This document shows positions 1 through 9,333 of a DNA stretch of 11,655 bases, piece after piece. The DNA comes from Acidobacteriota bacterium (lineage in GTDB: Bacteria > Acidobacteriota > Vicinamibacteria > Vicinamibacterales > Vicinamibacteraceae). How positions within the stretch are numbered: position 1 is the first letter of the stretch; every line of letters starts with the position of its first letter. Under the pieces are notes generated by a model. That model made no database searches. It worked only from the letters and a program-made list of their open reading frames with translations, and had not been told where the DNA came from. The translations under genes and the position numbers were made by a program. The stretch is taken from assembly GCA_013695405.1 (NCBI GenBank), contig JACDAO010000152.1, forward strand, positions 1-11,655, written 5' to 3'.

Positions 1-2224
1 CGATCTGCTCGACCCCGACCGTCACCGTGGTGAGGCCCTTGACCAGGAAGCCGACGTCGATGCCGCCGATGTCGTTGCCTTCCTGCAGGTACGCCGTGTA
101 CAGCGGATCCGCATTGCCGGCTGCGACCGTGTCGGTGTTCAGCCGCTCGGCCAGCTGCTGCAGGACGGCCAGATTCTCGAACTCGACGACCGCCAGGATG
201 TCGGGCGACTGCAGTACGTCGCGCACCGTGAGCGACGCCTTCTGCAGCCGCGTCGCCAAGGCCGCCGGCGTCAAGGCCACGTCGCTCACACCGGCGTCGT
301 TGACCGTGTCGAAGAACCGCTCGAAGTTCTGCGCCCCGACCGTCACTTCGCCGGCCGATGGCACGGGCACGCCGCTGACCGTCATGCCGCCGCTCACCAG
401 CGGCGCCGGGGACGGCGACGGCAAGGGCAGCAGCGTGTAGCTGGTGAAGGCGTTCTCCAGCGGGCCGACCAGGTTGCTGACGACCGCTCCGGTCGCGACG
501 TCGATCCGCGCCCCGCCGACGCCGTCGCTGTCGACCCGGAGGCGTTCCGGGTTGGTGTCGAACCTGGGCAGTTGCGCGGGCGGAGCCGGCACCGGCGCCC
601 ACGCTTCGACCCCCGGCTCGCGGAACGGGCGCGGCGTCCCGGGCAGCACGCCGAAGAAGGCGCCGTTGCTCGTGGACGAGGCGTTGGCCTCGCTGAGGGT
701 ACCGCCGGTCGGCGCGACCACTACCAGTGACGGCACGCGCACGAGCATGCCCTCGTACTTCTCGAGCCCCGACACCACCGCCAGATCGGCCGCCACCAGC
801 GTCACGGCCGCAGGCCTCGGCTGAGCTGTCGCGATTGCGGAGACCGTGGCATTCGTCAGCTGGGTCAGCGTGTACGACCCCGGCGACGCCGTGGCACTGC
901 GGAACTCGGTGACGATGCCGGTCACCGTGACCAGGTGCGAGACGGCGGCGGCTGCAGGCAGCGCGGTGCCGGTGAACACGAACAACCCTTCGGACGATGA
1001 GGGGTCGGCGTCCTGATCGGCGGCCTGGCTCTGGACGAAGAAGCCGTTGCTCTTGTGCGCGGTCACGATGCCTCTGGTAGTGACCGACTGTCCCGCCAAT
1101 GGCGAGGCCGCGCCGGTCCCCTGAATCTGGCTGATCGGGGTCAGGGCGATGTCGTTGTCGGTGATGCTGATCGACAGCGTCGGCACCGGCGTGCCGTTGT
1201 ACACGGCGTCGCTGCTGGTCACGACGTGGGCGACCGATCCCTGATGTGGCGACGGCTCGACGGCCGTGTCGTCGACCGCCTGCACCACCACGGTCTGCGC
1301 GACGTTCCAGTTGACGGACGTGAATGTCACCGACGACACGTCGGCCGAGACCTGCGCGTCCGGCGTGATGGCGACCACCACATCGGCGGTCGGCTGGCTG
1401 GTGAGCACCAGGGTGTAGCTGTCGGTCTGCGACCCTTCGGCTACGACGGTCGACCCGCCGGACTGCGTCAGCGTGACGCGGCTGGGCGGCCCGGTCGGTT
1501 CGCCCAGTGGCGTCAGCGAGAAGTCGTCGACGGCCAGGCCGTCGTCGGCGCCGGCCGCATCCAGATCGGTCCACCGGATCCAGATGGTGGCGCCGTCCGG
1601 GATGGCCAGGTTGTCAATCGTCGCCGACAGGGTGACGCGGCTGGCCGCGGCATTGCCGTCCTTGGCGCCGACGGTGACGGTGATCGGCGCGACGAAATCG
1701 AGCGCATCGACATCGATCCAGCCAGCGCCGGTCAGCGACGTCGCCGAGAGGCTGTACTGGAAGTCGAGCCGGTCGGTCCGGGCGATCGTCCCGAGCCGCC
1801 ACTGCTCACCGGTGTAGGCGATCGACAGCCCGGTCAGGGTGGTGCCGGTGGCGTTGGTGAAGCTCGCGCCGAAGATCGGCACCAGCGATCCGCTGCGCAA
1901 CGACCCGAACGCCCGGTCACTGCTGCCGCTGGCTCCGTAACTGTACACATCGCCGCTGTTGCCGACGCCGTCGTCAGCCGCGTACAGCTCGTTGTCGCGG
2001 GCACCGCCGCCGCTCTCGGTCAGCGCCCAGCCGGCCGGCAGTGTGGCGTTGGCGGTGCCGCTATTGGCCAGGCTGTCGAAGTCCTGCGTGTACGGCACAC
2101 CGACTGCGGTGAGCGGCGCCTGCGCCCGCACCGAACTGGCGCAGAGCAGGACGAGCACGAGGTACCAGGCGCGACGCCACATGCGCTGACTGAGGAACGA
2201 ACTCGAGGTGGCGACACGCGTCAT
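1..2224 (-). CDS. Secreted ExeM/NucH-like endonuclease with Calx-beta-like domain (3' end outside window)
   Basis: The reading frame is open from 2224 to the window edge, giving 741 codons with no stop. An ATG at 2224 follows an AGGGAG-like ribosome site 9-10 bases upstream. Residues 1-36 form a signal peptide: arginines, then YLVLVLLCASS, and an Ala-Gln-Ala cleavage site at 34-36. A second ATG at codon 15 would also give a signal peptide. Residues ~40-240 are a beta-rich, Asp/Gly/Ser-rich domain. Residues ~248-358 resemble Calx-beta-like repeats (WNVAQTVVVQAVDD, then SISITDND). Residues ~363-500 match the OB-fold-like module of ExeM/NucH nucleases (SQIQGTGAASPLAGQSV, NGFFVQ, DQDADPSSSEGLFV). 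From ~629 an endonuclease/exonuclease/phosphatase domain begins (QNFERFF; DILAVVEFEN, with E681 the likely metal-binding Glu). The remaining catalytic His/Asp residues lie outside the window. Family members degrade extracellular DNA. I infer nutrient (phosphate) scavenging or biofilm DNA turnover. The family call is firm; substrate is not proven. Confidence 0.85.
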   Translation of the reverse strand, partial: MTRVATSSSFLSQRMWRRAWYLVLVLLCASSVRAQAPLTAVGVPYTQDFDSLANSGTANATLPAGWALTESGGGARDNELYAADDGVGNSGDVYSYGASGSSDRAFGSLRSGSLVPIFGASFTNATGTTLTGLSIAYTGEQWRLGTIARTDRLDFQYSLSATSLTGAGWIDVDALDFVAPITVTVGAKDGNAAASRVTLSATIDNLAIPDGATIWIRWTDLDAAGADDGLAVDDFSLTPLGEPTGPPSRVTLTQSGGSTVVAEGSQTDSYTLVLTSQPTADVVVAITPDAQVSADVSSVTFTSVNWNVAQTVVVQAVDDTAVEPSPHQGSVAHVVTSSDAVYNGTPVPTLSISITDNDIALTPISQIQGTGAASPLAGQSVTTRGIVTAHKSNGFFVQSQAADQDADPSSSEGLFVFTGTALPAAAAVSHLVTVTGIVTEFRSATASPGSYTLTQLTNATVSAIATAQPRPAAVTLVAADLAVVSGLEKYEGMLVRVPSLVVVAPTGGTLSEANASSTSNGAFFGVLPGTPRPFREPGVEAWAPVPAPPAQLPRFDTNPERLRVDSDGVGGARIDVATGAVVSNLVGPLENAFTSYTLLPLPSPSPAPLVSGGMTVSGVPVPSAGEVTVGAQNFERFFDTVNDAGVSDVALTPAALATRLQKASLTVRDVLQSPDILAVVEFENLAVLQQLAERLNTDTVAAGNADPLYTAYLQEGNDIGGIDVGFLVKGLTTVTVGVEQI

Positions 2225-2356: not shown

Positions 2357-2965
2357 TCACCGTGTCGGCGGAGGCACTGGACCTGGCCAGACTTCGACGT
2401 CGATCGGCTTGAAGCGGTGGTTGTTCGACAGCTCGGCCGAGCAGGCCGTCACGCCAACGATCAGGTCGACCTCGGCGCGCAGATCGACGTAGTCACCGGC
2501 TCGTGACAGCGGCGGCAGCACCTGCAACGCGCCCGACGGTGCGATCTCGACGTTCATGAAGATGTTGAAGGTGGTCGGGATCTGATCTGGTTCGATGCCG
2601 AAGTGCGCCAGCGAGGTGGCCAGGTTCTCGAAGCAGCTGGGGTGGTGTCCGGACGTCTTGTAGAGCAACACGAACATCTCGGCGCTGCACGGAGTGTAGA
2701 GCAGGTCGTGGCGGCCGACCGTGTCGCCGGTGATCGTCAGCAGTGGCTGGCTCCGATTCGAATACAGCACGGCGCCCGTGGTCACGCGAATCGTGCTGTT
2801 GTAGTCGAGGGTCCGACCGGTCGACAGCCACTCCTTCGGATCGTCGCGCGAGAAGGCGATCAGGTCGGCGACCTGTTCCCCGAGCGGATCGGTCACGCGC
2901 AACGACGCCCCCCGATCGAGTCCGAAGGCGATGCCGGTCTGGGGGGCAATCCGCTGCCGGCTCAC
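2357..2965 (-). CDS. DUF1989 / urea carboxylase-associated family protein
   Basis: This 202-residue protein matches the DUF1989 family over almost its whole length. The features seen are RQRIAPQTGIAF and SLRVTDPLGEQVADLIAF (21-38), RTLDYNSTIRVTTG (51-64), LYSNRS (67-72), GRHDLLYTPCSAEMF (84-98), HHPSCFENL (107-115), TTFNIFMNV (131-139), GDYVDLRAEVDLIVG (157-171) and TACSAE (173-178). The conserved H107, H108, C93, C111 and C175 could bind a metal; this is inference. Characterised family members (CgdA/CgdB) act on carboxyguanidine in guanidine breakdown; most of the family is uncharacterised. I chose GTG at 2965 because it overlaps the stop of the upstream gene as GTGA and has GGGAG 7 bases before it. 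A GTG at 3010 would add 15 residues but lacks a ribosome site. It is the last gene of an overlapping three-gene unit, away from any urea carboxylase or guanidine transporter, so its substrate here is probably made by the two upstream enzymes. Confidence 0.85.
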   Translation of the reverse strand: MSRQRIAPQTGIAFGLDRGASLRVTDPLGEQVADLIAFSRDDPKEWLSTGRTLDYNSTIRVTTGAVLYSNRSQPLLTITGDTVGRHDLLYTPCSAEMFVLLYKTSGHHPSCFENLATSLAHFGIEPDQIPTTFNIFMNVEIAPSGALQVLPPLSRAGDYVDLRAEVDLIVGVTACSAELSNNHRFKPIDVEVWPGPVPPPTR

Positions 2966-3759
2966 TCCTTGGCTCCCGGCGGCTGATCGCGCCGTACGTG
3001 GAAAGGACACTGCCAGTCACTGCCGACCTGGCGACCTGAGTACTGGGAGGCTTCCGAACGCTCACCGAACTCGGTCAGCATCGGGTTGACGCTGCCCTGA
3101 AGTGTACGCTCCGCCTCGCGGATGACCTGCTGCATGCGCGGATAGCGTCCCGACGATCGGAGTCGGTCGAACTGATCGTGCGGGTTGAAGATCAATGTCG
3201 GCCAGGCGAACCGCCGCGTCACCCGCGAACTGGCGGCGTGCAGGCCGACCACAAAGAACGCGGTCTGCGCGAAGCTGAACGAGAAGTGCGGATCGGCGGT
3301 GTCGGCGGCAACACCCTCGGTCCAGTCGTACTGGGCCGCGTCGAGCTCGTGCAGGTGTTGCAGTGTGGCCCAGAGCAGGCGCTCGAACGCCAGCTCGTCG
3401 GCAGGCAGCGGGCCGGCAAAACTCGCGACGAAGGTCTGGAAGTCGGTGTGCAGCGTCTCCCGATCCTGGATGAAGCTGAACAGATCCTTCGCCAGCCCGG
3501 CGCACGAGGCGGGCGATCCGAGCGCCTCGAACAACCCGAATCGGTAACCGCCCTGTCGGATCGCGGCCTTGGCACCGACGCAGCTGAAGTGTTCGTTGAG
3601 GGTCAGCGAGCGGAATCCATCATGGACGAACGCGGTCAGCGGCGACGGCGGCGTCCCGTCGGCGCCGACCAGGCGCTTGCCGTCGTACGAGCAGTAGTTG
3701 CTGTGCTCGCTCGCGACGGCGCTATCGAATGGATTGGAGATCAGCGTCACAGCGTGCAC
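2962..3759 (-). CDS. YqcI/YcgG family protein, GntA-type haem-dependent N-hydroxylase-like
   Basis: This 265-residue protein shows the hallmark blocks of the YqcI/YcgG family: HFSFSFAQTAFFVVGLHAAS (158-177) with RRFAWPTLIFNPHDQFDRLR following (182-201), RSEASQYSGR (234-243) and the terminal WQCPFH (249-254). The N-terminal part carries YCSYDGK (22-28) and the conserved segment around CVGAKAAIRQGGYRFG (60-75). The best-studied member, GntA of guanitoxin biosynthesis, is haem-dependent and N-hydroxylates a guanidino group; related haem proteins N-hydroxylate arginine. Candidate haem or active-site residues are H158, H174, H194, C251 and H254, but I cannot assign the ligand from sequence alone. 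The GTG start at 3759 has AGGAG 11 bases upstream, lying inside the end of the PLP enzyme gene (38-base overlap). The downstream DUF1989 gene overlaps its stop by 4 bases. Both overlaps indicate one co-translated unit. The family call is firm. The substrate is not known; arginine, agmatine or another guanidino compound is an inference. Confidence 0.85.
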   Translation of the reverse strand: MHAVTLISNPFDSAVASEHSNYCSYDGKRLVGADGTPPSPLTAFVHDGFRSLTLNEHFSCVGAKAAIRQGGYRFGLFEALGSPASCAGLAKDLFSFIQDRETLHTDFQTFVASFAGPLPADELAFERLLWATLQHLHELDAAQYDWTEGVAADTADPHFSFSFAQTAFFVVGLHAASSRVTRRFAWPTLIFNPHDQFDRLRSSGRYPRMQQVIREAERTLQGSVNPMLTEFGERSEASQYSGRQVGSDWQCPFHVRRDQPPGAKE

Positions 3760-4978
3760 GTCTCACCCACTCCTCGGGTTGCTCGCGCTCGCGCGCCAGC
3801 GACAGGTCTTCGTCGTGGTCGCACCACGCGACCGCACACAGTCCCTGCGAGAAGCGCGTCTCCCAGGGCAGGTGGTAGGCTCCGGCATGGAGCCAGACCA
3901 GCACGTCGCCGATGGCCACGTCTGACGGCAACGGCACGCGCGCCAGGACGTCGTCGGTCATGCATGTCGGGCCGCAGACAGTGGTCAGGCGCGCCGGCCC
4001 GGTCCGCGCCGGCAGCACCAGCAGCGGGTGAGGGCCAGCATCGGCGGCGAGCGCGTGGTTGGTGCGACCGCCGTCGCAGATCAGGTAACGGCTGTCGGGC
4101 CGGACCTTGGCGTCGATCACCCGAACCGCCAGGGCCGACGCCTGCTCGGTGACGAAGCGCCCGTTCTCGAGCCAGAGCTCTTCGAGCTGTGGCGCAAACA
4201 GCGACCGTGCCGCGCCGATCGCATCAATCAGCTCGGCGAGTGCTGGTGCGGCCTCGGCCGGCCCCGGCAATCCCCCGCCACAGTCGAGGAAGCGGGGTCG
4301 GAAGGCCGCGGCGTCGCTGACCCGCGCCGCATGTTCGACCGCCCTGCGGTAGGCGCCCGCGGCGTGGTGGTGCTGGCCGAGGTGGAAGTGCAGGCTCAGC
4401 ACGTCGGCGCCGGCGGCCAGCAGACGGTGCAGCGCGTGCACCGCCTCATCGGTGGTCATCCCGAACTGGCCACCGAACCGGTCGTCCCGGCGATCCCGCT
4501 CGTCGGGGGCGTGCACACGCACGCCGACGCGCCATCGACAGCGCAATGCCAGCGGCATCAACGCGTCGACCTCGGTGGCCGAGTCGAAGTGTACGCGTAG
4601 CCCTTCGATTGGATGACGTCCGAGCCAGCTGTGCTTGGCGACGCCGTTGACCAACAGCTGATCGACGTCACAGCCGAGCGCGCGGGCTGTCGCGAATTCC
4701 GATTCGCTGACTACTTCCACACCACGACCGGACCGGGTCCACCACTCCAGCAGACGCGGCAGCGGATGGGTCTTGAAGGAGAGCCACGAGCGGACCCCCG
4801 GGCCAACGCGCCGCTCGAGCTCGGCGAGCGCGGTTTCGACCGGGCGCACGCGCGTGACGTAACACGGCGTGCCGTACAGCGCCGCGGCGCGGTGCACGGC
4901 CTGCCGCCAGCAGTCCGCCTCGGGCAGGAGTGCTGAGGTCGCGACAGAGATGACGGCTGGGCGCTGGCGAAACACCAC
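3722..4978 (-). CDS. Fold-type III PLP-dependent decarboxylase-like enzyme (Orn/DAP/Arg decarboxylase family 2)
   Basis: From GTG 4978 this is a 418-residue protein, a normal length for family 2 decarboxylases. The N-terminal alanine-racemase-like barrel has the PLP lysine in LSFKTHP (K69), EVVSESEFATARALG, HFHLGQ (in place of the usual HFHIGS), LDCGGGLPG, and LENGRF in place of the usual EPGRF. The C-terminal beta domain carries ICDGG, CGPTCMTDDVL with the catalytic C339, and the GDVLVWLHAGAY block. Family members decarboxylate basic amino acids or conjugates of them in the cytoplasm. In ornithine decarboxylase the residue after the catalytic Cys is Asp and contacts the distal amine; here it is Met (M340), arguing against plain ornithine. 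The start is uncertain: the frame stays open upstream, with an ATG at 5038 only 15 bases from the divergent glycosyltransferase start, and no good ribosome site precedes either candidate. Homology begins near SALLPEADCW (15-24), which fits the GTG. It is first in the three-gene unit and overlaps the N-hydroxylase gene by 38 bases. Confidence 0.8.
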   Translation of the reverse strand: MVFRQRPAVISVATSALLPEADCWRQAVHRAAALYGTPCYVTRVRPVETALAELERRVGPGVRSWLSFKTHPLPRLLEWWTRSGRGVEVVSESEFATARALGCDVDQLLVNGVAKHSWLGRHPIEGLRVHFDSATEVDALMPLALRCRWRVGVRVHAPDERDRRDDRFGGQFGMTTDEAVHALHRLLAAGADVLSLHFHLGQHHHAAGAYRRAVEHAARVSDAAAFRPRFLDCGGGLPGPAEAAPALAELIDAIGAARSLFAPQLEELWLENGRFVTEQASALAVRVIDAKVRPDSRYLICDGGRTNHALAADAGPHPLLVLPARTGPARLTTVCGPTCMTDDVLARVPLPSDVAIGDVLVWLHAGAYHLPWETRFSQGLCAVAWCDHDEDLSLAREREQPEEWVRRARCDADLQSIR

Positions 4979-4982
4979 GGCA

Positions 4983-5018
4983 GCAACGTCAGAGCAACAT
5001 CGTTGCCAGCACTCGTTG
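4983..5018. promoter_or_regulatory. Nested GCAAC/GTTGC inverted repeats in the divergent intergenic region (candidate operator)
   Basis: GCAACATCGTTGC at 4994-5006 is a perfect 5-base inverted repeat around a 3-base centre. A further GCAAC lies at 4983, exactly 11 bases before the inner left half-site, and CGTTG at 5014-5018 lies 13 bases after the CGTTG at 5001. The inner and outer pairs are centred within about one base of each other. This is the layout expected for a regulator binding as two dimers on one DNA face between divergent genes. No regulator gene is in the window. If the PLP gene started at 5038, these repeats would be coding, so their role depends on that start. Confidence 0.35.
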
Positions 5019-5032
5019 ATGCGCACTATGCT
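5003..5032 (+). promoter_or_regulatory. Possible sigma70-type promoter for the glycosyltransferase operon
   Basis: TTGCCA at 5003-5008 is followed after an 18-base spacer by TATGCT at 5027-5032. These match four or five of six positions of the -35 consensus and four of six of the -10 consensus. Transcription would begin near 5039, leaving a very short leader before ATG 5054 and no clear ribosome site. On the opposite strand CATAGT (5025-5030) could be a -10 for the PLP gene, so the two promoters would overlap. The support is consensus matching only. Confidence 0.25.
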
Positions 5033-5053
5033 CCGCATGCTGTGACTCACGCG

Positions 5054-6037
5054 ATGACCTACCTGGTGCCGATTCGATCGCGGCGGCCGGTTTCCGAGGA
5101 GTTCCTCGCCTATCTCGCGTACCTGATGAATACCGCTGTGCTGGCCGATGTGATCGTGATCGACGGCTCCGATGACGGCGTGTTCGCAGACTTCGCGTGG
5201 CGTCATCCGTCCGGGGTCCGCCATGTCCCCGTGGCACCCGACCTCGCGACGCTCGCCAACGGCAAGGTCGCCGGCGTGCTGACCGGGATTCGCCATGCCT
5301 CGACGGCGTACGTGGTGGTAGCCGACGACGACGTGCGGTACGACGCGGCTGGCCTGGTCGCGCTGCAGCACGCGCTGCAGGACGCAGAACTCGTCAGGCC
5401 GCAGAACTACTTCGACCCACTGCCGTGGCACGCCTGCCTCGACACGGCGCGCACCTTGATCAATCGGGTCACCGGTGGCGACTGGCCGGGTACGTTCGGC
5501 GTCCGTCGCGCGGTGCTCGAGCGGACGGGTGGCTACGACGGCAACGTGCTGTTCGAGAATCTGGAGCTCGTCCGGACGGTACGCGCTGCTGGTGGGCGGG
5601 AGAGCCGTCCGCTGCAGTTATTCGTGCGGCGGCTGCCACCCAGAACAGATCACTTCTGGTCGCAGCGCGTGCGCCAGGCGTACGACGAGTTCGCGCGTCC
5701 GGCCCGCCTGCTGACCTGGTTGTCCGTGATCCCCGTGCTGGCGCTGGCCGCGCGCCTCCATTGGCTGCTGTTCGGTGGCGTGTTGCTCGCTCCGCTGGCG
5801 GTCGCCGAAGCAGGGCGCCGGGTCGGCAACGGCGTGCGCGTCTTTCCTCTGCGCGCGACGCTGGCTGCGCCGCTGTGGGTGCTCGAGCGGGGTGTGTGTG
5901 CGTGGCTGGCGGTGGCCGCGCGGGTCGCTCTGGGTGGTGTGCCGTACCGCGGCCGGGTGCTCTCACGGGCGGCCACGCCGTATCGGACCCTGGTGTCGAG
6001 GCATGCGTCCGCAGCGGGACCAGGGCCGCTGACATGA
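5054..6037 (+). CDS. Membrane-associated GT2 family glycosyltransferase
   Basis: This 327-residue protein begins with a GT-A Rossmann-like half (TYLVPIRSRRPVSEEFLAYL; ADVIVIDGSDDG at 31-42), then the metal/nucleotide-sugar-binding DDD at 91-93 within AYVVVADDDVRY, and an acceptor-side segment GTFGVRRAVLERTGGYD with FENLE at 167-171. SQRVRQAYDEF (203-213) resembles the QxxRW-type block that precedes the membrane part of processive or ceramide-type GT2 enzymes. Hydrophobic stretches at about 219-253 and 263-293 should anchor the C-terminus in the inner membrane, with the catalytic domain in the cytoplasm. I chose ATG 5054 over an in-frame TTG at 5003 or GTG at 5042 because the GT2 fold starts right after it; none has a good ribosome site. 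Its stop overlaps the next start as ATGA. Donor and acceptor cannot be read from the sequence. It is the first gene of a four-gene overlapping operon, divergent from the N-hydroxylase unit. Confidence 0.8.
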   Translation: MTYLVPIRSRRPVSEEFLAYLAYLMNTAVLADVIVIDGSDDGVFADFAWRHPSGVRHVPVAPDLATLANGKVAGVLTGIRHASTAYVVVADDDVRYDAAGLVALQHALQDAELVRPQNYFDPLPWHACLDTARTLINRVTGGDWPGTFGVRRAVLERTGGYDGNVLFENLELVRTVRAAGGRESRPLQLFVRRLPPRTDHFWSQRVRQAYDEFARPARLLTWLSVIPVLALAARLHWLLFGGVLLAPLAVAEAGRRVGNGVRVFPLRATLAAPLWVLERGVCAWLAVAARVALGGVPYRGRVLSRAATPYRTLVSRHASAAGPGPLT

Positions 6038-7026
6038 CCAACGACCGCAGCCACGTCGCTGTGCCGTACCCGGCGATCGAGCCGGTCTCTCCCGGCACGG
6101 TGCGGCCGTTCTGGTCGGTGATGATTCCAACCTATCACTGCGCCGAGTACCTCGGGCACACCCTGCGCAGCGTGCTCGAGCAGGCGTTGCCAGCCGACGA
6201 CATGCAGATCGAGGTCGTCGACGACGGCTCGGTGCGCGACGATCCGGCGTCCGTGGTCGCGGAGGTCGGGCAGGGGCGGGTCGCGTTCTTCCAGCAACCG
6301 CGCAACGTCGGTCCGCAAGCGACCTTCACCACCTGTGTGCGCCGCGCGCGCGGTCACTGGGTGCACGTCCTGCACGGCGACGATATGGTGCGGCACGGCT
6401 TCTACCAGGCGATGCGCCGCGGCAGCGATGGCAACCCGTCGATCGGCGCCGCGTGCTGCCGTGTCATCACCATCGACGAACGCAACCAATGGCTCGAGAT
6501 GTCGGCGCCCCAGCAGCCGGATGCCGGCGTGCTTTCTGACCCGCTCACGCGGCTGGCGGTGTTCAACCACATCATGTTCCCGAGCGTGGTGGTCAGGCGC
6601 AGCGCGTACGAGCAGGTTGGCGGGTTCCACCCGTCGCTCTTTCACTCGGCCGACTGGGACATGTGGAAGCGGCTGGCGGCGCGCGTTCCGGTATGGTACG
6701 AGCCGGAGCCGCTGGCGCTCTACCGGATCCACACCCGCTCGGATACCTCCAGGCTGATGCAGACCGGCGCCAACATCGCTGATGCGCGTCACGCGATCGA
6801 TATTGCCGAGGCGTATCTGCCAGCAGCGGACGCCGGCGCGTTGAGCCGCCGCGCCCGGCGCTATCACGGACTCTACGCCATCGAACTGGCGCGTGAACGG
6901 ATACGTCGTGGCGACTGGGCGTCGGCCCGGGCCCAGATCCGCGCCGGCCTGCGGTGCGACCCGTCGCCGCGGGTGCTGGCCGCGGTGCTCGGCGCGCTGC
7001 TGTTCAGGGATGACCATGTCGGCTGA
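6034..7026 (+). CDS. Soluble GT2 family glycosyltransferase
   Basis: This 330-residue protein is a typical inverting GT-A glycosyltransferase. WSVMIPTYHCAEYLGHTLRS (27-46) opens the nucleotide-binding fold. VVDDGS (61-66) is the classical GT2 motif. PRNVGPQATFTTCVRRARG (89-107) follows, and HGDD (114-117) is the DXD-like metal site. FPSVVVRRSAYEQVGGF (182-198) and SADWDMW (205-211) form the acceptor and catalytic-base region; D207 or D209 replaces the common ED pair. YRIHTRSDTSR (230-240) ends the domain, and an Arg/Ala-rich helical tail follows. No membrane segment is visible. The ATG at 6034 overlaps the preceding stop by 4 bases, with AGGG about 8 bases upstream. A much longer open frame extends upstream from 5197 but is antisense or out of phase with the first glycosyltransferase. 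It probably adds a sugar to the same glycan or glycoside as its neighbours; the substrate is unknown. Confidence 0.87.
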   Translation: MTNDRSHVAVPYPAIEPVSPGTVRPFWSVMIPTYHCAEYLGHTLRSVLEQALPADDMQIEVVDDGSVRDDPASVVAEVGQGRVAFFQQPRNVGPQATFTTCVRRARGHWVHVLHGDDMVRHGFYQAMRRGSDGNPSIGAACCRVITIDERNQWLEMSAPQQPDAGVLSDPLTRLAVFNHIMFPSVVVRRSAYEQVGGFHPSLFHSADWDMWKRLAARVPVWYEPEPLALYRIHTRSDTSRLMQTGANIADARHAIDIAEAYLPAADAGALSRRARRYHGLYAIELARERIRRGDWASARAQIRAGLRCDPSPRVLAAVLGALLFRDDHVG

Positions 7027-7495
7027 ACACGTCACGTACAGCTACAAGGCGCTCTCAGGTGCCGATGTGCACCTGCTCCGTCAGTTGCTCGACGTGTTCG
7101 CGCTGGCCTTCGACGACCACGAAGCCTACCAGGGTGCCGTGCCCGGCGACGCCTACCTGCAGGCCCTGCTCGCCAAGCCGCACTTCATCGCGCTCGTGGC
7201 GCTCGCCGGCGACCAGGTCGTCGGCGGCCTGGCGGCTTACGAACTCGAGAAGTTCGAACAGGACCGGCGCGAAATTTACATCTACGATCTGGCCGTCGAT
7301 CAGGCGCACCGCCGCCGTGGCATTGCCAGGGCGCTGATCGCCGAACTGCAGCGCCTCGCGAGCGTTCGGCGCGCCTACGTCATCTACGTCCAGGCCGATC
7401 GCGGCGACCACCCGGCGATTGCGTTGTACGAATCGCTGGGCGTCAGGGAAGACGTGCACCACTTCGACATCCCCGTCGACGCCGCCAGGCAGTGA
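7016..7495 (+). CDS. AAC(3)-I-like GNAT N-acetyltransferase
   Basis: This 159-residue protein resembles AAC(3)-I aminoglycoside 3-N-acetyltransferases along its full length. LLDVFALAFDDHEAY (24-38), HFIALVALAGDQVVGGLAAY (56-75), KFEQDRREIYIYDLAV (79-94), HRRRGIARALI (98-108, the acetyl-CoA pyrophosphate loop), AYVIYVQADRGDHPAIALY (120-138) and LGVREDVHHFDI (141-152) all have counterparts in AAC(3)-Ia as I recall that sequence. The enzyme would transfer acetyl from acetyl-CoA to an amine. I chose ATG 7016 because AGGGA sits 5 bases before it; an ATG at 7010 lacks such a site. The gene overlaps the upstream glycosyltransferase by 11 bases and the downstream one by 4. Family homology alone does not prove drug resistance. 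Locked between glycosyltransferase genes, it more likely acetylates an amino group on the cluster's own product or intermediate, or gives self-protection. No integron or transposon is nearby. Confidence 0.87.
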   Translation: MSAEHVTYSYKALSGADVHLLRQLLDVFALAFDDHEAYQGAVPGDAYLQALLAKPHFIALVALAGDQVVGGLAAYELEKFEQDRREIYIYDLAVDQAHRRRGIARALIAELQRLASVRRAYVIYVQADRGDHPAIALYESLGVREDVHHFDIPVDAARQ

Positions 7496-9333
7496 ACTTC
7501 GCGCGCCCGGTCCGTTTCGGCACCGTGCTGATGCTGGACTCGACCGACCAGTACGGTCATGCCGACGACGGCGCGGCAATCGACGCCGAGGAACTGGCCC
7601 GCCTCATCACTGGCATTCGCGAGACCTGGCCGGACCAGCCGCTGCTGGTCAGCCGGTGGTCGCACGCGCTGGATCAGCCGCCCGTGACCGACAGTGCGCC
7701 GCCTGGCGCCGACGCACTGACGGTGACGCGCGACTTCACAGACGTGAAGCGGCTCGTCGGCATCTCGTCGGTCCTGCCAGAGCGATGGCTGGTCGTTCGG
7801 CCGAGCGTGCTGCTGCTGCCCGCGCAGGCGCTGCGTACAGCCGTCGAGTGGACCATTCGCCACACGCCCGACCTGGTGACCCTGGACGGCGTCGCGGCTG
7901 ACGTCTTCTACGTCGCGAGTGCGCGCGCGGTGGCGATGGTCGCCGCCCTGGGCGGTGTGCCCGGGTGCGTGACGCTGCCGCAGGCACTCGAGCGGCTGAC
8001 CGGCGCGGGTGGCGCGGATGACGAGGGTGCGCTTCGCGTCACGCGACTGACGCCGCGCGACATCGCCTGGCCCGATCAGGCGCTGGTCAGCGCGTTGGAT
8101 CCGCGGGGCTGGCGATCGCAGCGACTCGGCCCGCTGCTCGCGCTGCCGTCGTCCGCGCGACTTGCCGAGGCCCTTCGCCGACAGCAGCACGCACTGGGCG
8201 ACGCGCGATCGGCGCTTCGAGCGCAGCGCGACATGACCGGTGCGGCAACGCCAACCGACCGCAGGGAGGTGCTGGTGGTGGTGCCGTCGATGTATCAGTC
8301 CGGCGCCCAGGCGGCGTGGGCCGAGGTCGCCGGCTACCTGTCGCCCGCGCAGGCCGCCTTCGTGGTCGGACGATCGACGGTGCTGCAAGGCATCCTCCAG
8401 GCCACGGGATTTCGCGTGTTCGAGGTTGGCGAGGGGCTCGCCGCGACCAGTGCCGCGGATGCCGCAACCTTCTTCGCTGCCCTGGACGCCGTGCGACCCG
8501 CCGTCGTCCACTTCGACGGCGCCGAGGGAAACACCTGGGCGCCGGCGGTGTTCTCGCGCGGCGTGCGCATCGTGCAGCACGTCAGGCTCAACGCCGTCGA
8601 CAGGTTCCGCCCGGTATTCGCCTACGCCGACGCTGTGGTCGGCGTGTCTCCCCATGTGGTCAGCGAGATTGCAGCCCGGGTGGGCACGGCGGTGCGAGTC
8701 GAGCACATCCCGGACGGCGTCGATGCTGCGGCGCGCGCGCCCGCTGCCGCCATGATGGAGAGGGCCGTGCTGACCGACGAGCGCACGGTGCAGTGCCTGT
8801 GCGTCGGTCGGGTGGAACCGGCGAAGGGGCAGCTGCGCGTCCTCGAGATCGTGCAGCACCTTGGCGCGCACCGCCGCTGCCGGCTGGTCATCGTCGGTCC
8901 ATGCGGCAGCGACCCGGCCTACTGCGATGCGGTGAGCGATCGAATCCGCGCCGCGCCGCCGGACACCACCATCAGCTGGCGCCCGTTCACGTATCCGATC
9001 GCCGACCTGTATCAGCAGGCACACGTCGTGCTCGTCGGATCGCGCAACGAGGCCCTTGGGATGGTCGGCCTCGAGACCCTGGCGGCTGGCGGCCTGCTCG
9101 TCGCACAGCGGTCGACCGGGTACGAGTGCATCATTGACGCGTCGACGCCGGACGGCCTGTTGTACGACAGCGACGAACCGGCGTCGCGCGTGGCTGAGCG
9201 GATCGCGGCTGCGCTGCAGGACTTCGGTCGGTACTCGGTCAACGCCCGCAGGAAGGCCGCGGCATGCTTCGGTGCCAGCGAGTCGGCCGCGCGGCTGTCG
9301 CGCCTGTGGCGCGAGGTCGGCGGGCGCGGCTGA
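7492..9333 (+). CDS. Two-part protein: unrecognised N-terminal domain fused to GT4 glycosyltransferase
   Basis: This is a 613-residue protein. The C-terminal half (~257-610) is a GT-B, GT4-type enzyme. It shows VLVVVPSMYQSGAQAAW (260-276), VVHFDGAEGNTWAP (338-351), VRIVQHVRLNAVDRF (358-372), ADAVVGVSPHVV (379-390), IPDGVD (406-411), VGRVEPAKGQLRVLEI (438-453), LVIVGPCGSDPAY (465-477) and the EX7E motif E520-E528 in SRNEALGMVGLETLAAGG. The N-terminal ~220 residues are not recognised. FGTVLMLDSTDQYG, TRDFTDVKRL (79-88) and PERWLVVRPSVLLLPAQAL (96-114) faintly recall nucleotidyltransferase or GT-A folds, but this is only an impression. Residues ~222-247 look like a helical linker. GTG 7492 overlaps the acetyltransferase stop as GTGA, indicating coupled translation. 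The enzyme probably adds the last sugar or extends the product in the cytoplasm. The GT4 part is firm; the N-terminal role is open. Confidence 0.85.
   Translation: MNFARPVRFGTVLMLDSTDQYGHADDGAAIDAEELARLITGIRETWPDQPLLVSRWSHALDQPPVTDSAPPGADALTVTRDFTDVKRLVGISSVLPERWLVVRPSVLLLPAQALRTAVEWTIRHTPDLVTLDGVAADVFYVASARAVAMVAALGGVPGCVTLPQALERLTGAGGADDEGALRVTRLTPRDIAWPDQALVSALDPRGWRSQRLGPLLALPSSARLAEALRRQQHALGDARSALRAQRDMTGAATPTDRREVLVVVPSMYQSGAQAAWAEVAGYLSPAQAAFVVGRSTVLQGILQATGFRVFEVGEGLAATSAADAATFFAALDAVRPAVVHFDGAEGNTWAPAVFSRGVRIVQHVRLNAVDRFRPVFAYADAVVGVSPHVVSEIAARVGTAVRVEHIPDGVDAAARAPAAAMMERAVLTDERTVQCLCVGRVEPAKGQLRVLEIVQHLGAHRRCRLVIVGPCGSDPAYCDAVSDRIRAAPPDTTISWRPFTYPIADLYQQAHVVLVGSRNEALGMVGLETLAAGGLLVAQRSTGYECIIDASTPDGLLYDSDEPASRVAERIAAALQDFGRYSVNARRKAAACFGASESAARLSRLWREVGGRG

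Follow-up and report, generated by a model that had tools for sequence, protein, structure and literature searches.

This analysis concerns an 11,655-nucleotide stretch of contig JACDAO010000152.1 (assembly GCA_013695405.1) from an Acidobacteriota bacterium, referred to here at its full length as the window, and three overlapping genes on its reverse strand that encode a pyridoxal phosphate (PLP) decarboxylase, a member of the YqcI/YcgG haem N-oxygenase family and a DUF1989 protein. The source genome is 94.72% complete, and the three genes are laid out as follows:

3722..4978, reverse strand: predicted PLP decarboxylase of fold III, in a clade of its own with a Cys-Met motif (PF02784 62.8 bits and PF00278 42.1 bits, Pfam run on 3722-4984)
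2962..3759, reverse strand: YqcI/YcgG haem N-oxygenase family protein, GTG start (PF08892 183.8 bits; NF041366 263 bits; Cys60 equivalent to AglA Cys44)
2357..2965, reverse strand: putative DUF1989 metalloenzyme of a YqcI-linked subfamily (PF09347 193.2 bits; Asp34, Cys93, Cys111, Cys175)

The overlaps of 38 bases between the PLP and YqcI genes (3722-3759) and 4 bases between the YqcI and DUF1989 genes (2962-2965), described in an earlier note on this DNA, were confirmed from the sequence, and the family names that it gave were correct by Pfam. An alternative, longer start of the DUF1989 gene is possible at 3010. It is very likely that the three genes are made together, as that note proposed, and the triad is real; what was missed is a glycosyltransferase gene (GT2a) that lies 75 bases away on the opposite strand and belongs to the same cassette, as well as a far wider conservation of YqcI with DUF1989. 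The stable unit is the YqcI-DUF1989 pair, which is smaller than the triad, and the cassette around it is larger than the triad.

The YqcI-DUF1989 pair across genomes

A public genome collection was scanned with a YqcI alignment, and the best 80 of at least 581 confirmed stretches make up the 80-locus set used below, a sample biased to close relatives because it was taken in this way. In 64 of the 80 loci, which represent 12 phyla, YqcI is followed directly by a DUF1989 gene in the same orientation; these include two loci (L037 and L064) where DUF1989 is present only as a piece cut by the contig end. The gap between the matched YqcI and DUF1989 segments is 207 bases or less in 62 of these 64 loci, and in three of them the two are fused in a single protein with YqcI N-terminal each time (L012 and L032 from Nannocystis, L062 from Nitrospira). 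Beyond these 12 phyla, the pair is also carried by a Deinococcus plasmid. Ten of 17 plasmid records matching YqcI were examined, and a DUF1989 neighbour was present in eight (in L105 as a short frame outside the record's gene table) and absent from two. Taken together, the genetic linkage of YqcI and DUF1989 is well shown.

Draws made independently of similarity rank yielded five further YqcI-bearing genomes, three in the class of the window, one around genome G193 (185 genomes) and one around G194 (198 genomes), and all five have an adjoining DUF1989; G193 and G194 themselves were picked for having the pair and are excluded from this count. YqcI (PF08892) is rare in the window's class, occurring in four of 193 genomes with the window's own counted. 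The fourth bearer, L085, has the pair on a 5.4-kb contig without PLP or GT2a genes and belongs to the other branch of the YqcI tree. DUF1989 was found in 26 of 185 genomes of the G193 draw, 16 of which have a tandem pair of DUF1989 genes, and in the G194 draw it is confined to the two genomes with YqcI. The DUF1989 gene is single-copy in 11 of 12 pair-bearing genomes, and the window's genome likewise has one copy. Distances among YqcI and among DUF1989 proteins co-vary (r 0.63 over 60 loci; permutation maximum 0.114), with L043 (two DUF1989 copies), L064 (cut) and the near copies L007, L008, L069 and L075 left out. The control genome of Bacillus subtilis contains both families, in genes that we take to be ycgG and ycgI.

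Some loci have additional genes of these families or other neighbours. In Cesiribacter, a second, distant YqcI copy (~42 bits) is located right downstream of the pair (L039 9591-10196 and L043 9720-10409), and L043 has an additional DUF1989 upstream. The Rahnella plasmid L107 (5923-11208) holds a different type of YqcI cluster without DUF1989, in which YqcI is followed by SDR, 2Fe-2S, LysE, tRNA-ligase-beta-related and MOSC genes. A shared family of ~310-510 residues (open frame) adjoins the pair in five loci (L028 9255-10544, L034 6380-7648, L038 9371-10741, L052 9261-10577 and L078 9055-10596), and Pfam matched neither its L028 nor its L078 member.

Glycosyltransferase, decarboxylase and methyltransferase partners

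Upstream of the triad, a second gene set runs in the opposite direction:

4979..5053, no strand: intergenic gap of 75 bases separating the divergent gene sets (from gene coordinates), presumably the site of promoters for both
5054..6037, forward strand: GT2a, a GT-A fold glycosyltransferase (PF13641 27.5 bits, cut-off 27; model with a predicted local distance difference test score (pLDDT) of 95.0; PDB GT2 matches; linked in 22 of 80 loci)
6034..7026, forward strand: GT2b glycosyltransferase (PF00535 72.3 bits; overlaps GT2a by 4 bases; also adjoins GT2a in L086)
7016..7495, forward strand: AAC(3)-I family N-acetyltransferase (NF033083 213.5 bits, cut-off 200; overlaps GT2b by 11 bases; cassette membership uncertain)
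7492..9333, forward strand: family 4 glycosyltransferase (PF00534 60.2 bits; overlaps the acetyltransferase gene by 4 bases; cassette membership uncertain)

The neighbour counts that follow are of homologues of chosen queries, above fixed scores and within 3-3.5 kb. A GT2a homologue is found within 3 kb in 22 of the 80 loci (7 phyla), every one of which is paired, making GT2a the next most constant partner after DUF1989 and one linked more often than the decarboxylase. The GT2a proteins aligned from these loci fall into two groups, with 49-57% and 35-38% identity to that of the window, and were counted as one partner. A decarboxylase is near in eight of the 80 loci and comes in two unrelated folds, fold III (L005, L015 and L047) and the PF00282 type (L014, L029, L036, L040 and L072), assigned by Pfam in L015, L040 and L047 and by homology in the remaining loci. 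The window and L086, both outside the 80, give two more fold-III cases, and the best-scoring model for the decarboxylases of L014, L040 and L072 is that of diaminobutyrate decarboxylase, at scores far under its cut-off. Another eight loci have a methyltransferase nearby. With the thresholds used, the decarboxylase and the methyltransferase occur only beside GT2a and never both in one locus, while six GT2a loci have neither. A packed operon in Rubrobacter (L006) consists of methyltransferase, GT2a, YqcI and DUF1989 genes that abut or overlap.

The order PLP-YqcI-DUF1989 was also found in L086, with overlaps of 25 and 4 bases, and in L087, which is on the same contig as L005, so that the full triad is seen in DNA only in three genomes including the window's. 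The co-conservation on which the earlier note hinged holds for YqcI with DUF1989 and not for the triad as a unit; in the cassette the decarboxylase is specific to certain lineages and can be replaced, the third enzyme being interchangeable. The use of two unrelated decarboxylase folds suggests that decarboxylation is needed in some lineages, with the methyltransferase perhaps acting as an alternative in tailoring.

To look at linkage more broadly, we compared contig sizes among public protein matches, where an equal size implies, and does not prove, one contig. Of 57 distinct YqcI contig sizes above 2.5 kb, 17 recur in the PLP list (mean 0.65 and maximum 5 in 120 shifted controls) and 20 are common to YqcI and GT2a (mean 0.53 and maximum 3), and the linkage of PLP to YqcI exceeds chance. 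On a YqcI tree made by a quick method with a midpoint root, all 24 GT2a rows fall inside one 40-row branch (support 94), with zero in the other 43 rows. GT2a is unlikely to be a chance neighbour, given the contig sharing and its place beside the pair in seven phyla and 22 loci. A 731-residue protein (P0281) considered as a PLP-YqcI fusion was rejected, having no YqcI part and a long N-terminal stretch that by eye resembles an over-extended start.

A gene resembling cyanophycin synthetase and Mur ligases stands beside GT2a in the decarboxylase's place in L017 (4939-6879, reverse strand) and L020 (3608-6250, reverse strand). The acetyltransferase of the AAC(3)-I aminoglycoside-modifying family, with matched relatives in the PDB, sits among glycosyltransferase genes of an environmental bacterium, and its natural target may be an amino sugar. 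At the other end of the window, positions 2-2224 (reverse strand) encode a 741-residue protein with a signal-like N-terminus and zero Pfam matches.

Protein features and comparison with characterized systems

The window's YqcI protein scores well above the cut-offs of both PF08892 (27 bits) and NF041366, the NCBI model for GntA (145 bits). In the accessible text on the argolaphos enzyme AglA (PMC12866846), the haem ligand is Cys44 with Arg166 as propionate partner, Phe182 and Phe152 sandwich the chain of the substrate AMPn-Arg, and Gln177 positions the guanidine via water. Going by residue equivalences taken from printed alignments, Cys60 (AglA Cys44), Arg182 (Arg166) and Phe197 (Phe182) are present in 83 of 83 rows, residue 169 (Phe152) is Phe in 58 and Tyr in 24 of the 83, and Gln177 is replaced by Asn192 in all 83. 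A model of the fused homologue L062 (pLDDT 89.0) matches AglA, with a template modelling (TM) score of 0.74 by target, as well as DUF1989 crystal structures (0.79). The window protein shares with AglA the fold, the haem Cys, the propionate Arg and the substrate aromatics, but identity in the fold alignment is ~19-21% and the published AglA cluster context, in the part available, has no DUF1989 pair. From these features the window's YqcI looks like a competent haem N-oxygenase family member, and the kept pocket residues favour an alkyl guanidine or amine substrate.

Guanidine N-oxygenation is also the chemistry given for GntA (guanitoxin) and ChmN (chalkophomycin) in the accessible part of PMC10849742. 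Both belong to the same family as the window's YqcI; unlike them, it is paired with DUF1989 and GT2 and has no guanitoxin neighbours in the window. None of the eight window proteins scanned against NCBIfam matched another guanitoxin model, a search confined to the window, and no guanitoxin-like neighbours were found in the ten plasmid stretches examined, whose whole genomes were not searched for other guanitoxin genes. The NCBI name 'guanitoxin biosynthesis GntA' is nonetheless attached to 14 of the 17 plasmid YqcI matches (e.g., L101, L104 and L106), which come from very different bacteria, and looks over-propagated.

Among 73 distinct DUF1989 proteins linked to YqcI, Asp34, Cys93 and Cys111 are present in all, Cys175 in 72 (with one gap) and His108 in 68. 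They were compared with unlinked DUF1989 proteins from one class-level draw plus L100 (49 rows, 41 distinct). Asp54 is present in 73 of 73 linked proteins, whereas 30 of the 41 unlinked ones have Lys or Arg there, and Asn181 is found in 72 of 73 linked against none of 41 unlinked. The window protein was below the cut-offs of TIGR03424 and TIGR03425 (UAAP1 and UAAP2; 117.7 against 284.7 and 105.6 against 205.95 bits) and of NF053776 for trimethylamine N-oxide (TMAO) demethylase, Tdm (88.9 against 1100 bits), lacking its GcvT half. All four linked proteins tested (those of the window, L006, L078 and L041) fail the three models, while the controls pass, namely the tandem proteins of L113 for UAAP and L131 for Tdm (1205.1 bits). 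Two unlinked proteins, L130 and L134, fail all three as well, and further DUF1989 subfamilies therefore exist. On these scores and residues, the YqcI-linked proteins are a distinct subfamily with a putative Cys3/Asp metal site.

The UAAP proteins are carboxyguanidine deiminases according to the title of a paper cited in the accessible text of PMC11271267, and the earlier note had read the window's DUF1989 protein in the light of CgdA/CgdB. Apart from the DUF1989 fold this likeness did not hold up, as linked proteins fail both models, have Asp54 for Lys/Arg and are mostly single-copy where CgdA/CgdB are tandem genes, with one DUF1989 in the window's genome. It is possible that Lys or Arg at position 54 binds the carboxylate of carboxyguanidine and that Asp54 would bind a cation. 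According to the available portion of PMC12560246, TMAO demethylase has a DUF1989 domain in which there is a Cys3 site for zinc, one Asp is important and a His was proposed to coordinate iron; the Cys3 metal site and an N-oxygenated substrate, in Tdm's case, are the points of likeness, and the missing GcvT half and the low score are the differences. Two CgdB-like matches that resemble urea carboxylase-associated proteins were discounted as probable false positives in a study of Nitrospirales (PMC12342949, accessible part), and these may belong to the YqcI-DUF1989 module.

In the PLP enzyme, Lys69, His199, Gly201, Gly234/235 and Cys339, which we take to be the PLP Lys, HxG, GGG and catalytic Cys of fold III, are each conserved at 97% or more across the filled rows of a 125-row alignment. 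The residue after the catalytic Cys is likewise Met in 97% or more of these rows and Leu in L015 and L047, whereas the Lys/Orn decarboxylase chain has Asp and the LysA chain Glu, an acidic residue with a functional role in those enzymes. The PLP motifs and domains resemble those of LysA, ornithine/lysine decarboxylase and BtrK, but with the Cys-Asp/Cys-Glu motif absent, an ordinary basic amino-acid substrate, as suggested earlier, is not indicated. A housekeeping LysA is not supported, as the protein is under the TIGR01048 cut-off (106.4 against 297.9 bits) and a better candidate (268.1 bits, cut by the contig end) is located elsewhere in the genome. GT2a barely exceeds the PF13641 cut-off, and its model has a GT-A fold with a mannosyltransferase, ArnC, RmlT and cellulose synthase as the best Foldseek matches in the PDB. 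Its Asp motif (Asp93) is invariant in 39 rows. With these relatives, helices at the C-terminus and a single weak hydropathy segment, GT2a may have an acceptor of the lipid type.

Proposed pathway and alternatives

We propose, with a probability of about one half, that the genes form a compact metabolic cassette whose core is a conserved module of two enzymes, YqcI and DUF1989, with lineage-specific decarboxylase and GT2 additions. In chemistry modelled on that of AglA, GntA and ChmN, YqcI, with haem bound via Cys60, would N-hydroxylate a small cationic compound, a guanidino compound being likelier than a plain amine. DUF1989 would then act directly on the N-hydroxylated product through its Cys3/Asp metal site, most likely by hydrolysis or removal of a C-N bonded group of the N-hydroxyguanidine, in a deiminase or hydrolase reaction, or alternatively by a Tdm-like rearrangement. 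In the window's lineage, the fold-III decarboxylase may make or trim the amine part, and GT2 may put a sugar on the product or on a lipid carrier. That the two enzymes act one after the other on one substrate is supported by their shared strand, close spacing, fusions, co-variation and joint occurrence, and the tight pairing with natural fusions suggests that an intermediate is handed over between them. A similar logic is seen in D-cycloserine biosynthesis, where arginine is hydroxylated by DcsA and an arginase-like hydrolase, DcsB, follows, but the second enzyme here is DUF1989. DcsA is mentioned in the accessible part of PMC10849742. A route that starts from arginine or agmatine cannot be read from the sequences.

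Several points weigh against this proposal. YqcI occurs without DUF1989 in 16 of the 80 loci; four of these end soon downstream of YqcI (L027 and L049 within 200 bases, L021 and L024 within 900), and the other 12 have no detectable DUF1989 despite at least 1.9 kb of downstream sequence, among them Nitrospira and Verrucomicrobiota close to paired ones as well as Streptomyces/Amycolatopsis. The 80 loci are the nearest of at least 581, and common ancestry could also produce the co-variation. On the YqcI tree the GT2a label cannot be explained with fewer than 11 changes (shuffled mean 20.9), and the GT2 link has therefore been gained or lost repeatedly. The sequence match of YqcI to AglA is weak (E 0.0017), and no guanidine riboswitch was found in the 12 sources scanned near the pair, the sole RNA match being one tRNA.

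An amine route like that of Tdm is possible though doubtful. YqcI would oxidise an amine nitrogen and DUF1989 would rearrange the resulting hydroxylamine or N-oxide so that its C-N bond breaks, releasing a smaller amine together with an aldehyde or imine; the starting amine would come from the decarboxylase. This would fit the kept Asp34 and three Cys of the linked proteins, His108 in most of them and decarboxylases of two folds in the cassette, but His108 is not invariant, the Tdm score is far too low without the GcvT half, and known YqcI members act on guanidines (PMC12866846 and PMC10849742, accessible parts). It is unlikely that DUF1989 is instead a non-catalytic partner or specificity subunit, the pair carrying out a single N-oxygenation. 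Fusions and tight coupling would suit such a role, and inactive cognate subunits, including a carboxyguanidine deiminase of the DUF1989 family, are mentioned in the available text of PMC11271267; however, the linked proteins show no variation in their metal ligands, AglA and ChmN reportedly work on their own as recombinant enzymes (same parts of PMC12866846 and PMC10849742), and DUF1989 is absent from the 16 unpaired loci. Less likely still, the PLP gene and GT2a could be accidental neighbours of an independent pair, as 58 of the 80 loci and several plasmids have no GT2a match, but GT2a beside the pair in seven phyla, contig sharing above the shifted controls for both genes and the packed operons of Rubrobacter argue otherwise. 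A literal reading of the NCBI name, in which a guanitoxin-type GntA works in a guanitoxin-like pathway, agrees with the NF041366 score but is scarcely credible, with no guanitoxin model matched by the other window proteins scanned, neighbours that are GT2, decarboxylase, methyltransferase or nothing constant, and the same name spread over such different plasmid hosts.

More speculatively, the YqcI-DUF1989 module might be a widespread, undescribed two-step route in which a common guanidino metabolite (for instance arginine or agmatine) is first N-hydroxylated and a reactive nitrogen product such as hydroxylamine, an N-hydroxyurea or a nitric oxide precursor is then freed, a function like that of nitric oxide synthase from unrelated enzymes, which the decarboxylase and glycosyltransferase would extend to a glycosylated product in some lineages. 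We found no description of the pair in the literature searched, mostly without subscription papers and including the accessible parts of PMC8319176 and PMC8313275, and a description may exist.

More than the triad, it is the YqcI-DUF1989 module, with GT2 as its extension, that makes this locus interesting. These results suggest that many genes bear a misleading automatic name in 'guanitoxin biosynthesis GntA', which could confuse toxin surveys. Two families that are poorly understood also gain from them a partner and a context that can be tested, with YqcI/YcgG outside the known antibiotic and toxin clusters and a DUF1989 that appears to be neither a carboxyguanidine deiminase nor a TMAO demethylase.

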